Shown: positions 14,230 through 54,991 of the stretch, piece by piece
Numbering within the stretch: position 1 is the stretch's first letter
How the letters are laid out: each line of letters starts with the position of its first letter
Assembly: GCA_004335835.1 (NCBI GenBank)
Contig: RWJK01001463.1
Coordinates: forward strand, 1 to 64,000
Reading direction: 5' to 3'
Length of the DNA: 64,000 bases
Source of the DNA: Scenedesmus sp. ARA3
Lineage: Eukaryota > Chlorophyta > Chlorophyceae > Sphaeropleales > Scenedesmaceae
Position numbers and translations under genes: made by a program
The notes under the pieces: model-generated
What the model was told of the DNA's origin: nothing
Databases searched by the model: none
Seen by the model: the letters and a program-made list of their open reading frames with translations, nothing else

Positions 14230-14725
14230 TCCGCTGGCGCACGCCTTGCAGCGCGGATGCGTGTCGCGCTCAGAAGCTGTAGCTGCTGCTGCTGCAGTAG
14301 CTGCTGTCTGCCTTGCTGTCGCGCTCAGAAGCTATAGCTGCTGATGCTGCTGCTGCCCGCCTTGGTCTCGCGCCGAGAAGCTGTAGCTGCTGCTGCTGCT
14401 GCCCGCCTTGGTCTAGCGCTCAGCAGCTGCAGCTGCCGCCAGCCTTGGGTTTTGCGCACAGAAACTGTAGCTGCAGCTGCCGTCCGCCTTGGGTTTTGCG
14501 CACAGAAACTGCTGCTGCTGCCCACCTTGGGTTTTGCGCTCAGAAGCTGCTGCTGCTGCTGCCCACCTTGGGTTTTGCGCTCAGAAACTGCTGCTGCTGC
14601 TGCTGCCCACCTTGGGTTTTGCGCTCAGAAGCTGCAGCTGCTGCTGCTGCCTGCCTTGGGTTTGCGCTCAGAAGCTGGAGCTGCTGCTGCTTCCCGCCTT
14701 CGATTTGCGCTCAGAAGCTGTAGCC
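14230..14725 (-). repeat. ~45-bp tandem array copying the 3' end of the channel gene
   Basis: About eleven units contain GCGCTCAGAAGCTG or a close variant, separated by CTG runs and CCGCCTTGGGTTTT-like blocks. On the minus strand each reads like CAGCTTCTGAGCGC, the last codons plus TGA stop of the channel gene (stop at 14711-14713). The array therefore looks like repeated copying of the stop-codon region into the 3' UTR. Confidence 0.8.
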
Positions 14726-54900: not shown

Positions 54901-54991
54901 TGTAGCTGCGCTGCGAGCCGCACCAACTGCACCCAGCAGCAGCAGCGGTGCTGCGGCAGCTAGGCCAGCGTCAGGTGCTGCAGACTGCTGA
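30989..54991 (+). CDS. ABCC (MRP)-type full-size ABC transporter, 27 exons
   Basis: Exons: 30989-31124, 31587-31817, about 32163-32560, 33254-33343, 34075-34253, 34761-35205, 35512-35672, 36190-36341, 37230-37336, 37894-38067, 38604-39213, 40007-40161, 40856-41020, 41572-41890, 42676-42811, 43574-43723, 44212-44367, 45097-45243, 47720-47843, 48455-48532, 48841-49160, 49430-49521, 50330-50460, 51404-51637, 52254-52313, 52856-53018, 53883-54991. Phases match; 6222 nt, 2073 aa. Order: TMD0 (exons 1-4), L0/TMD1 ([18 protein letters not shown]), NBD1 (Walker [11 protein letters not shown] about 801, signature [21 protein letters not shown]), TMD2 ([26 protein letters not shown]), NBD2 ([45 protein letters not shown]). 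NBD1 has Asp after Walker B and Asn in the H-loop (ATNQLQF), as I recall for vacuolar AtABCC1/2; NBD2 is canonical. Such pumps move glutathione or phytochelatin conjugates and other anions, often into the vacuole. About 370 Ala/Ser/Gln-rich residues follow NBD2. The exon 3 start is uncertain. Confidence 0.93.
31835..31940 (+). repeat. ~30-bp repeats in ABCC intron 2
   Basis: GTCTCATTGCA/GTGAGATT-type units recur three times. They end in GCACCTCACGAGTAGC, which copies the end of exon 2 (CACCTCACGAGTGGC at 31801). Confidence 0.75.
32585..32905 (+). repeat. 131-bp echoes of the donor side of ABCC exon 3
   Basis: GTTTGTGGTGCAGCAGGAGC starts at 32611 and 32742, and a third variant (GTCTGTGG) at 32873; both spacings are 131 bp. 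The first two extend through TACTGCACATACGCAGCC to a GTGGGC donor. The intact exon has the equivalent at about 32481. The single undetermined base (N, 32773) is in the second echo. Confidence 0.92.
32773..32773. other. Undetermined base (N)
   Basis: The only ambiguous base noticed, inside a near-perfect 131-bp tandem repeat after ABCC exon 3. It probably reflects assembly difficulty in the repeat. Confidence 0.95.
33400..33760 (+). repeat. ~160-bp echoes of the donor side of ABCC exon 4
   Basis: GCTAGGCCGGCGCAGTACGC followed by GGTGAGTG or GGTGGGTG recurs at about 33409, 33569 and 33726 after the intact exon end at 33343. Confidence 0.88.
34714..34760 (+). repeat. (CTG)n tract at an acceptor
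   Basis: An almost pure CTG run leads directly into the acceptor CTGCAG of ABCC exon 6. Similar CTG runs end many introns here (37570-37610, 37690-37770, 37850-37888, 40820-40855), where they supply both pyrimidine-rich sequence and the terminal CAG. Confidence 0.9.
35395..35482 (+). repeat. Acceptor-side echo of ABCC exon 7
   Basis: GGTGCTGCTGCTGTCCCCCG through TCAGCAGCGACACCA at 35399-35475 nearly duplicates the start of exon 7 (35512) with its CACAG acceptor, 113 bp upstream. Confidence 0.9.
35818..36120 (+). repeat. Three acceptor-side echoes of ABCC exon 8
   Basis: CAGGCAGCTGGGGCTGTC or a variant starts its exon part at 35823, 35941 and 36063. The intact exon is at 36189-36190. Spacings are 118-126 bp. 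Copies carry GTGTGCATCGGCGCCGCTGT before diverging. Confidence 0.92.
36520..36600 (+). repeat. Donor-side echo of ABCC exon 8
   Basis: CTGCAGCAGGCGCTGCGCCA and the rest of the exon end with donor GGTCAGTAATC recur 242 bp downstream of the intact copy (36281). Confidence 0.92.
36850..37160 (+). repeat. Three acceptor-side echoes of ABCC exon 9
   Basis: GCAGGCATYGAGGTGGTGAA-like starts occur at 36853, 36981 and 37099 before the intact exon at 37226-37230. Spacings are 118-128 bp. All copies run as far as CCCTTCTACAG or an equivalent and then into CATGTG-rich intron. Confidence 0.92.
37605..37860 (+). repeat. Two acceptor-side echoes of ABCC exon 10
   Basis: Copies of the exon start (CTGATGGGTGTGTTGGT, then CCATCCCCACC) follow acceptors at 37612 and 37773. 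The intact exon starts at 37894. The second echo has an extra base (GTTGGTTCGACG), which would shift the frame. Confidence 0.9.
39290..39470 (+). repeat. Two donor-side echoes of ABCC exon 11
   Basis: CAGCTGCCTGGCGGCGACAA and a later CAGCTGCGTGGCGGTGACGA repeat the exon end (residues [10 protein letters not shown]) with donor-like GGTGAGGG or GGTCAGGG. Spacing is about 120 bp. Confidence 0.88.
39765..39950 (+). repeat. Acceptor-side echoes of ABCC exon 12
   Basis: GCGACCGTGGCGTCAACGTG at 39883, running to about 39945, and a more decayed copy at about 39768-39815 (AGCGTCAGCGTGTCAAGCAG) precede the intact NBD1 signature exon at 40007. Confidence 0.88.
40312..40675 (+). repeat. Two ~250-bp donor-side echoes of ABCC exon 12
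   Basis: GCTGACGCTGACGTTGTGCT through GCCATCAAGAGG and GTAAGT recurs at about 40322-40412, and a variant ending AAGAGC then GTGAGT at about 40575-40669. They copy Walker B and the following residues. They cannot replace the intact exon because they lack the ABC signature. Confidence 0.9.
41161..41240 (+). repeat. Donor-side echo of ABCC exon 13
   Basis: GTGGAGGTGGGCAGCTACAG through GAAGGAGGCACAG and GTGCGG repeats the 3' half of the exon ending at 41020, about 212 bp downstream. Confidence 0.92.
42000..42270 (+). repeat. Donor-side echoes of ABCC exon 14
   Basis: CTGCGAGTGGGAGCCACAGT through GTGTGGACAG and GTGCGG recurs at about 42009-42055. A shorter decayed piece (GTGCGGACAGGTGCGG) lies at about 42254-42269. 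Confidence 0.88.
42540..42630 (+). repeat. Acceptor-side echo of ABCC exon 15
   Basis: TGCAGGCCAAGATCCGGATG through TACATGGGCGTGTATGCA duplicates the start of exon 15 (42676) with its acceptor, about 128 bp upstream. Confidence 0.92.
42905..43365 (+). repeat. Donor-side echoes of ABCC exon 15
   Basis: GGCATCAAGGGCGGCAGGTG-like copies lie at about 43006, 43101 and 43341, with a partial at 42911. They repeat the exon 15 end (YGIKAGR) with donor GTGCG. The first two sit in near-identical ~93-bp units. Confidence 0.88.
43815..43990 (+). repeat. Donor-side echoes of ABCC exon 16
   Basis: GGCAACCTGGCCTTTGCGCT then CAGGTGCGTG at about 43828-43857, and a decayed copy at about 43938-43985, repeat the exon end (SNLAFALR) after the true donor at 43724. 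Confidence 0.85.
44455..44645 (+). repeat. Two donor-side echoes of ABCC exon 17
   Basis: GCGCCTGGAGGCGGTGTCAC then GGTGCGCTGCA recurs at about 44469 and 44607 after the intact exon end at 44367. Confidence 0.92.
45930..46790 (+). repeat. Alternating purine-pyrimidine tandem array in ABCC intron 18
   Basis: A degenerate unit of about 36-45 bp, with GGCGCGCGCGTGTG-like blocks followed by CATCCGCGTGGC and TGGGTGTTT, recurs many times. Looser CG/GT-rich sequence continues to about 47350. It is the core of a 2.5-kb intron, has no recognisable coding, and is of the type prone to Z-DNA. Confidence 0.85.
47950..48170 (+). repeat. Two donor-side echoes of ABCC exon 19
   Basis: GCAGCCACCATGGGCCTGCT and the following codons ([10 protein letters not shown]) recur at about 47968 and 48125 with donor-like GGTGGG and GGGGGG after the intact exon ending at 47843. 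Confidence 0.9.
49612..50070 (+). repeat. Donor-side echoes of ABCC exon 22 (NBD2 Walker A edge)
   Basis: Long copies of the exon end ([15 protein letters not shown], then TGAG) lie at about 49720-49792 and 50000-50067. Short copies with only the last part (CACCGGCGCAGGTGAGGG type) lie at about 49624 and 49897. They form two units of about 275 bp. Each ends in a GTGAGGG donor, and the Walker A motif stops at the same point as in the true exon. Confidence 0.9.
50780..51345 (+). repeat. Five acceptor-side echoes of ABCC exon 24
   Basis: GCAGGTGCCTGTGCTGTTCAC-type starts lie at 50791, 50936, 51046, 51171 and 51293 before the intact exon (51404). Spacings are 110-145 bp. They encode variants of VPVLFTGSI followed in some by ENLAPFGG. 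Confidence 0.92.
51740..52065 (+). repeat. Two donor-side echoes of ABCC exon 24
   Basis: A long copy at about 51750-51881 (GTGGTGGAGCAGTGGGAGCG through CTCAACCCTGCCAAGG) includes the NBD2 signature region with SAEQ instead of SAGQ. A shorter one follows at about 52000-52045. Confidence 0.9.
52425..52580 (+). repeat. ~24-26-bp tandem repeat in ABCC intron 25
   Basis: About seven units of GTGTCACCCGGCANNTCAGCC. They lie between exons 25 and 26 and do not match either exon. Confidence 0.9.
53080..53625 (+). repeat. Five 118-bp echoes of ABCC exon 26, each with a 33-nt potential mini-exon
   Basis: GCGCTGCTCAAGGAGGAGGC occurs at 52985 (intact exon) and at 53102, 53220, 53338, 53456 and 53574, with spacing 117-118. 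In each echo the base context before it is CCCGCAG or CTGCAG, giving an acceptor. A donor follows 33 nt later: GT in four, GC in the third. The potential mini-exons are 53103-53135, 53221-53253, 53339-53371, 53457-53489 and 53575-53607. Confidence 0.93.

Follow-up and report, generated by a model that had tools for sequence, protein, structure and literature searches.

The 64-kb stretch of nuclear DNA analysed here (hereafter the window; contig C1085 of the Scenedesmus sp. ARA3 assembly G000, 87.27 Mb in 1567 contigs) derives from a green alga and carries two genes, an ABCC transporter on the forward strand and an ERD4/OSCA (CSC1)-like channel on the reverse strand, which together fill the span studied and whose introns hold copies of the adjoining exon edges with their splice sites, termed echoes in what follows. 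Over 1787 aligned residues, the ABCC protein shows 25 differences from Tetradesmus obliquus record P0001, and the product of a CCT-epsilon gene located outside the window is identical to a T. obliquus record over all 479 residues aligned; judged by these comparisons, the alga appears to be very close to T. obliquus, or T. obliquus proper. Pfam PF13967, PF14703 and PF02714 were found on relatives of the channel protein, whose family we take to be that named OSCA/CSC1. Exon maps were built independently of the repeats, using a purpose-written spliced protein-to-DNA aligner with P0001 as the query for ABCC and P0121 for the channel. The latter is a continuous open reading frame of 1120 aa on a 3617-bp Logan contig and was taken as a spliced transcript (complementary DNA, cDNA) because the frame is continuous though the gene has 27 introns. 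All 27 introns are GT-AG in each map, with 1763 of 1796 aligned positions identical for ABCC and 1096 of 1120 for the channel, whose map runs from 29526 to 14714. With only the intact exons used, the coding lengths are 5370 bp (ABCC) and 3339 bp (channel), both multiples of three, so that the earlier statement of a first-pass annotation that the messenger RNA (mRNA) appears to be protected agrees with the exon maps; junction use is seen directly for the channel only, through P0121. The last ABCC intron (53990-54664), for which P0001 is the sole support, may not be an intron, since an open frame (53798-54991) crosses it.

Echoes were searched for by aligning 20 exon and 20 intron nucleotides at each edge to the adjoining intron, with a cut at a score of at least 18; hits scoring 14-17 were left out of the counts at that cut. 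Junction copies were found at 31 of 108 exon edges (ABCC 23/54, channel 8/54), 73 copies in all and 1 to 9 per echo-bearing edge, and the looser cut of 14 raises this to 32 edges and 80 copies. The first-pass annotation had claimed more than 25 such edges, on both strands and under a strict rule whereby copies of the 5′ part of an exon with its acceptor lie upstream of the intact exon and copies of the 3′ part with its donor lie downstream. All of this held on the repeat-independent maps: wrong-side copies at the cut were absent from the 104 edges searched (best score 17, with 3 edges reaching 14), and the highest score among 648 control tests against unrelated introns was likewise 17. The annotation's assertion that most introns are affected stands for ABCC, where 18 of 27 contain at least one copy, and fails for the channel, where 7 of 27 do.

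Self-BLAST and Tandem Repeats Finder (TRF) analysis of the window revealed adjacent direct copies of short units, many with periods of 100-135, and the common spacing near 120 bp is in agreement with the 100-135 bp claimed. The two genes contain 33 tandem arrays, of which 29 extend across an exon edge and 4 are intron-only. With the arrays collapsed, the few intron-only ones included, the 18,630 bp of ABCC introns shrink to 11,959 bp and the 11,474 bp of channel introns to 8,771 bp; extra copies thus make up 24-36% of intron length, and their description as the main source of that length was overstated. The forward repeat pairs are local, 100 of 101 being separated by <1 kb and the remaining one by 1.2 kb, and none joins introns of the two genes, on which grounds an introner or transposon origin was rejected for the window; a search of the assembly for dispersed copies of one 99-base unit matched only its own place. 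The splice dinucleotides are largely preserved, with GT in 34/37 donor echoes and AG in 34/36 acceptor echoes, a retention of 0.95-0.97 per base compared with ∼0.90 for the exon part. Fifteen introns contain echoes of both kinds; in each of them the donor echoes precede the acceptor echoes, and hence no such pair can bound an exon together.

Eight further genes of the same assembly were modelled, comprising five HSP70 genes, two CCT genes and part of another ABC transporter; the HSP70 genes represent 5 of 10 loci, those on C1411, C273, C726, C1534 and C943 having been left out as cut by contig ends or more divergent. Echoes occur at 42 of 146 edges in these genes, again with none on the wrong side (0/130). 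The counts are 6/22 (C272), 9/30 (C1075), 1/20 (C590), 0/12 (C1383) and 0/10 (C74) for HSP70, 10/20 for CCT-epsilon (C1032), 11/20 for C1492 and 5/12 for C338. In the C1492 model, exons 5 and 6 (an untemplated stretch) and the start of exon 7 are doubtful; no echoes were counted at exons 5 and 6, and one edge was counted at the exon 7 donor. The load is uneven, at about half of the edges in the two CCT genes (L030 on C1032, L031 on C1492) and none in the two cytosolic-type HSP70 genes (L023 on C1383, L024 on C74), and expression level may be a factor. Pooled over ten genes, of which eight carry echoes, 73 of 254 edges have own-side echoes versus 0 of 234 on the wrong side. At these 73 edges, the nearest copy lies at a median distance of 127 (quartiles 114 and 175), and the distances leave remainders of 0, 1 and 2 on division by three in 28, 20 and 25 cases, without clear preference for multiples of three. 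Six-frame family searches, inspected by eye from tables that were not systematically counted, gave six cases of truncated first-part copies upstream of an exon and last-part copies downstream.

Stretches chosen by contig number, blind to genes, were also surveyed (150.8 kb; 16 of 20 used, four lying beyond contig ends). These contain 43 tandem clusters with a median spacing of 125 bp, 65% of them at 80-140, and exactly one coding flank is present in 15 of 36 testable arrays as against 17% for random placement; the same test on the window genes gave 55% against 23%.

The excess at exon edges was quantified by clustering self-matches in seven genes and comparing them with random placement in the collapsed genes, mRNA-changing placements being forbidden. 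Edge-spanning arrays account for 39 of the 43 classified, a number reached in 0 of 200,000 simulations (18.1 expected), and for all 22 arrays with a best match of at least 88% (9.9 expected); ten further arrays overlapping exons with <8 nt of intron were left out. Detection bias was considered as the source of this excess and rejected, as an exon-masked search still returned 28 edge-linked versus 4 intron-only arrays, with the reservation that arrays consisting of echoes are not wholly free of such bias. Three of the four intron-only arrays coincide in part with minisatellites (period 22-40 bp) in ABCC introns 18 and 25 and in channel intron 15, whereas the fourth (near 46837-47220, spacing 141, ≤81%) has no such overlap and may be an intron-only duplication. 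ABCC intron 18 (45244-47719, 2476 bp) differs from nearly every other array of the gene in that its repeats do not derive from exons; in part they are minisatellites with a 32-38-bp period. None of the 52 units in the seven genes, whose lengths were compiled by hand from repeat matches, encloses an entire exon together with its two splice sites, where a simple placement model would predict 5.6; this absence was rechecked, and no exon-internal copies were seen. Duplication of whole or alternative exons was therefore rejected as the general case, the sole exception being a doubtful exon of C1492, a gene outside that set of seven, described below.

Simple tandem duplication predicts that the intron part is copied with the exon part, that it diverges about twice as much, and that nonsynonymous sites drift neutrally. 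In the 20 + 20 windows of the two genes, the exon side is ∼90% identical and the intron side 77-82%, near the expected 1:2. Over 89 copies from the window and HSP70 genes, however, the exon part averages 0.88-0.90 identity, and in 42 the similarity of the intron past its first 8 nt does not exceed the 95% level for randomly paired introns. In ten HSP70 cases, picked for matches ending near the junction, the exon parts are 88-100% identical; in nine of these cases the match reaches 2-9 bases into the intron, and in the tenth 19. Extended to 134 copies, 60 flanks are shared, 64 are at random level and 10 are intermediate, the last being left out of the flank comparison. The synonymous divergence (dS) between exon and echo is equal whether the flank is related (0.187) or unrelated (0.192), which argues against one clock for the copied block. 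Overall, dS is 0.206 at the 73 edges (nearest copy) with Poisson-like scatter (index 1.19, P 0.17), and the nonsynonymous divergence (dN) is 0.035 and over-scattered (index 1.88), about six times lower; dN/dS between exon and echo is ∼0.15-0.19. The earlier account of the echoes as tandem duplications spanning a splice junction is thus borne out in that the edge is copied with its splice site at tandem spacing; the random-level flanks and the low dN are not what it predicts.

CpG-site differences number 44/148 at fourfold versus 13/310 at nondegenerate positions, synonymous differences are balanced in GC direction (85 versus 73), and echo synonymous sites have a coding-like GC content. In three genes, the nearest strain agrees with the exon at 99 amino-acid differences between exon and echo and with the echo at 2, and all differ at 1. 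On the other hand, 11 of the 12 gaps that interrupt the exon part of a nearest copy have lengths indivisible by three and hence shift the frame, and where an array has at least three copies, the changes confined to a single echo (private changes) are nearer neutral (36 synonymous, 42 not). The simplest joint reading is that exon and echo lineages diverged mainly while both were coding, the echo becoming noncoding later. At a coding divergence of 13%, the introns of two paralogous HSP70 genes, compared as four pairs, have identities of 0.54-0.66, against 0.56-0.59 for unrelated introns.

Echo-derived peptides occur in other records. The T. obliquus protein P0002 (labelled UTEX 393) ends in a repeat of the ABCC exon 13 edge peptide with two residues swapped, a variant absent from the window, and reads as though the annotated gene had been extended into the donor echo of exon 13. 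A 15-aa insert in P0131 (T. obliquus CCT-epsilon, strain not stated) repeats the exon 10 edge peptide, at which C1032 has six donor echoes; the full insert string is not in one frame of the C1032 stretch, where its first seven residues do occur. As the echo sequences of P0002 and P0131 are not those of this assembly, assembly error is an unlikely source of the echoes. Two CCT-epsilon records near to this alga, P0202 (Scenedesmus sp. NREL 46B-D3) and P0156 (GHUV01, apparently a transcriptome), stop just past the exon 10 donor, at which the present genome has its six echoes, possibly through intron retention. The CCT-epsilon record P0132, labelled Trichinella spiralis, is 833 residues long and exceeds closer algae in total score against the algal query; repeated segments may be present in it, or its label may be wrong.

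The echo-bearing edges of the window are given in Table 1. Outside both genes, a 124-bp unit is repeated in tandem at 59551-60047, in four copies of ∼90%.

Table 1. The two genes of the window and their echo-bearing edges, from the exon maps and matches to junction windows of 20 exon and 20 intron nucleotides.
Feature	Position	Strand	Remarks
ABCC (MRP-type) transporter gene	30989..54988	+	28 exons, 27 introns; echoes at 23/54 internal edges
ERD4/OSCA (CSC1)-like channel gene	14711..29526	-	28 exons, 27 introns; echoes at 8/54 internal edges
ABCC exon 3 donor edge	32470..32902	+	2 echoes, period ∼131
ABCC exon 4 donor edge	33327..33773	+	3 echoes
ABCC exon 7 acceptor edge	35366..35587	+	1 echo, period 112, 94%
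ABCC exon 8 acceptor edge	35760..36243	+	3 echoes
ABCC exon 8 donor edge	36274..36766	+	1 echo; second at score 14
ABCC exon 9 acceptor edge	36761..37276	+	2 echoes, both coding Ile versus exon Val
ABCC exon 10 acceptor edge	37574..37960	+	3 echoes
ABCC exon 11 donor edge	39182..39468	+	1 echo; second at score 14
ABCC exon 12 acceptor edge	39756..40091	+	1 echo
ABCC exon 12 donor edge	40072..40677	+	2 echoes, period ∼251
ABCC exon 13 donor edge	40949..41274	+	1 echo; near-identical peptide at end of UTEX 393 P0002
ABCC exon 14 acceptor edge	41415..41604	+	1 echo
ABCC exon 14 donor edge	41849..42062	+	1 echo; second at 42245, score 16
ABCC exon 15 acceptor edge	42530..42739	+	1 echo
ABCC exon 15 donor edge	42763..43461	+	3 echoes; fourth at score 17
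ABCC exon 16 donor edge	43691..43950	+	1 echo
ABCC exon 17 donor edge	44332..44749	+	2 echoes
ABCC exon 19 donor edge	47785..48260	+	2 echoes
ABCC exon 22 donor edge	49448..50082	+	4 echoes, at least 2 kinds of intron flank
ABCC exon 24 acceptor edge	50701..51462	+	5 echoes
ABCC exon 24 donor edge	51505..52044	+	1 echo; second at score 14
ABCC exon 25 acceptor edge	52069..52268	+	1 echo, at the cut (score 18)
ABCC exon 26 donor edge	52963..53671	+	5 echoes, period 118
Channel exon 8 acceptor edge	25898..26832	-	6 echoes
Channel exon 8 donor edge	25511..25880	-	3 echoes
Channel exon 19 acceptor edge	19913..21029	-	9 echoes, period 103
Channel exon 19 donor edge	19284..19886	-	2 echoes, period 276, 96%
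Channel exon 20 acceptor edge	18834..19148	-	1 echo
Channel exon 24 acceptor edge	17024..17390	-	2 echoes, third at score 14; one echo codes Phe versus exon Cys
Channel exon 24 donor edge	16624..16930	-	2 echoes
Channel exon 25 donor edge	15951..16143	-	1 echo

We tentatively interpret the echoes as short duplications born of repair at exon edges, filtered by selection and often copied from a diverged allele, a reading to which we assign slightly less than an even chance. A break at an exon-intron border would be repaired by re-synthesis of ∼50 nt on the exon side and ∼70 nt on the intron side, after which end joining would leave a second copy of the edge at a distance of ∼120 bp. Selection would purge any outcome in which the mRNA is altered, and the survivors would be 5′-edge copies upstream and 3′-edge copies downstream of the intact exon, some of which, as the shared flanks suggest, would then have been amplified into arrays through ordinary slippage or unequal exchange. 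From the allele-like divergence between exon and echo we infer that a diverged homologous chromosome, the exons of which would be similar enough to pair, often served as the template in place of the same molecule, or alternatively that the exon was later exchanged for another allele. In either case the exon part of an echo would have diverged as a coding allele and then, for a shorter time, decayed as noncoding DNA. As introns diverge fast, exons would be the only places where diverged chromosomes can pair, and a stronger form of the reading, in which the echoes are fossils of aborted inter-haplotype repair and end joining that, anchored in exons for that reason, placed part of an exon edge from the other haplotype in the intron, is in our judgement rather unlikely.

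Several observations weigh against repair from a diverged allele. A second allele was not found in the assembly with one 354-base exon query, and the arrays that share flanks, such as the nine copies at the channel exon 19 acceptor, are accounted for by plain tandem duplication in cis. A bias of breaks toward exons is needed on top of selection, and the null model from which the edge excess is calculated forbids placements over two edges and uses collapsed intron lengths. The dN/dS ratio differs by gene, from 0.07 (C1032) to 0.38 (C1075), and private echo changes, nearer to neutral as they are, remain more synonymous (0.46) than the neutral expectation of 0.32. Finally, one self-match in C1492, among all ten genes, covers a whole 49-nt exon, the model of which is doubtful.

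Plain duplication in cis of randomly placed ∼120-bp segments, filtered solely by purifying selection on the mRNA and followed by neutral decay of the copies, explains the spacing and the shared-flank arrays, gives the side rule by geometry alone and agrees with the near 1:2 divergence in the window; the same explanation leaves the edge excess and the random-level flanks unaccounted for, requires a dN/dS estimated at ∼0.5 where 0.15-0.19 is found, and does not accommodate a dS unchanged by flank sharing, and we therefore consider it unlikely. The low dN/dS, the preserved GT and AG dinucleotides and the echo peptides in two T. obliquus protein records could instead indicate function, as alternative exon pieces or as decoy splice sites under selection. 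Such a role appears improbable in view of the frameshifting gaps, the lack of a clear preference for distances divisible by three, the order of donor before acceptor echoes that precludes a joint exon, and the cDNA-type P0121, which contains intact exons only; translation of the echoes in particular is disfavoured by the frameshifts and the distances.

An artefact in which the assembly merged two diverged haplotypes would yield allele-like divergence with constant dS across edges, as found, and a lone N does lie inside one array. Arrays of up to nine copies of one period, the near absence of whole-exon copies and the few intron-only duplicates are difficult to reconcile with such merging, as are the peptides of P0002 and P0131, whose echo sequences do not occur as such in the corresponding stretches of this assembly, and we give the artefact little credence. 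It is similarly doubtful that the duplications are old and that their exon part was homogenized by gene conversion from the exon while the introns diverged. This would fit a conserved exon part beside a random-level flank in about half of the copies, as well as the paralogous HSP70 introns that are hardly alignable at 13% coding divergence; a donor in the same exon, however, would reset synonymous and nonsynonymous sites alike, and the observed dN/dS would require a donor from another allele.

Certain features of the echoes have counterparts in known systems. In a potato RNA-dependent RNA polymerase (RdRp) gene, tandem duplication over an intron/downstream-exon boundary is reported to have made a new intron, confirmed by RNA sequencing (PMC4974935). 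As in the alga, that duplication crosses the boundary, carrying with it the branch site, polypyrimidine tract and acceptor, but it is one event that produced a new intron, whereas the algal copies are many, silent within introns, derived from both sides of exons, present in 8 of 10 genes examined and divergent in an allele-like manner. The model of Rogers for intron birth at AGGT, as described in the same source, likewise involves tandem duplication and leaves the peptide unchanged; the algal copies differ in bearing intron-side splice sites inside introns, in place of exonic AGGT forming the intron ends. Small tandem duplications arising in break repair have been studied extensively; they are described as the commonest short (<100 bp) insertions in the human genome, and defined breaks have been tested in mammalian cells (PMC8355091), where small tandem copies arise from fill-in and end joining at break ends; no exon-edge bias or diverged template is described in the accessible part of that work. 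Introners resemble the echoes in producing bursts of new intronic sequence, and are dispersed copies of one element (PMC9860276), in contrast to the local copies seen here. Literature searches of incomplete coverage, judged by titles and the starts of abstracts, returned no recognizable account of exon-edge copies in Scenedesmaceae introns or of a genome-wide silent population of them.

If the pattern is general, it describes a process of intron growth that is tied to exon borders and that leaves the spliceosome with many decoy splice sites to ignore, where the order of donor before acceptor echoes may by itself protect the mRNA. It would also explain some mis-annotated Tetradesmus exons, of which P0002 and P0131 look like two. 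Two questions become testable, namely the fast turnover of introns in some algae and the choice among near-identical splice sites. Should the inter-haplotype reading be true, the echoes would document past hybridity and recombination that failed, and would represent a distinct route of intron growth.

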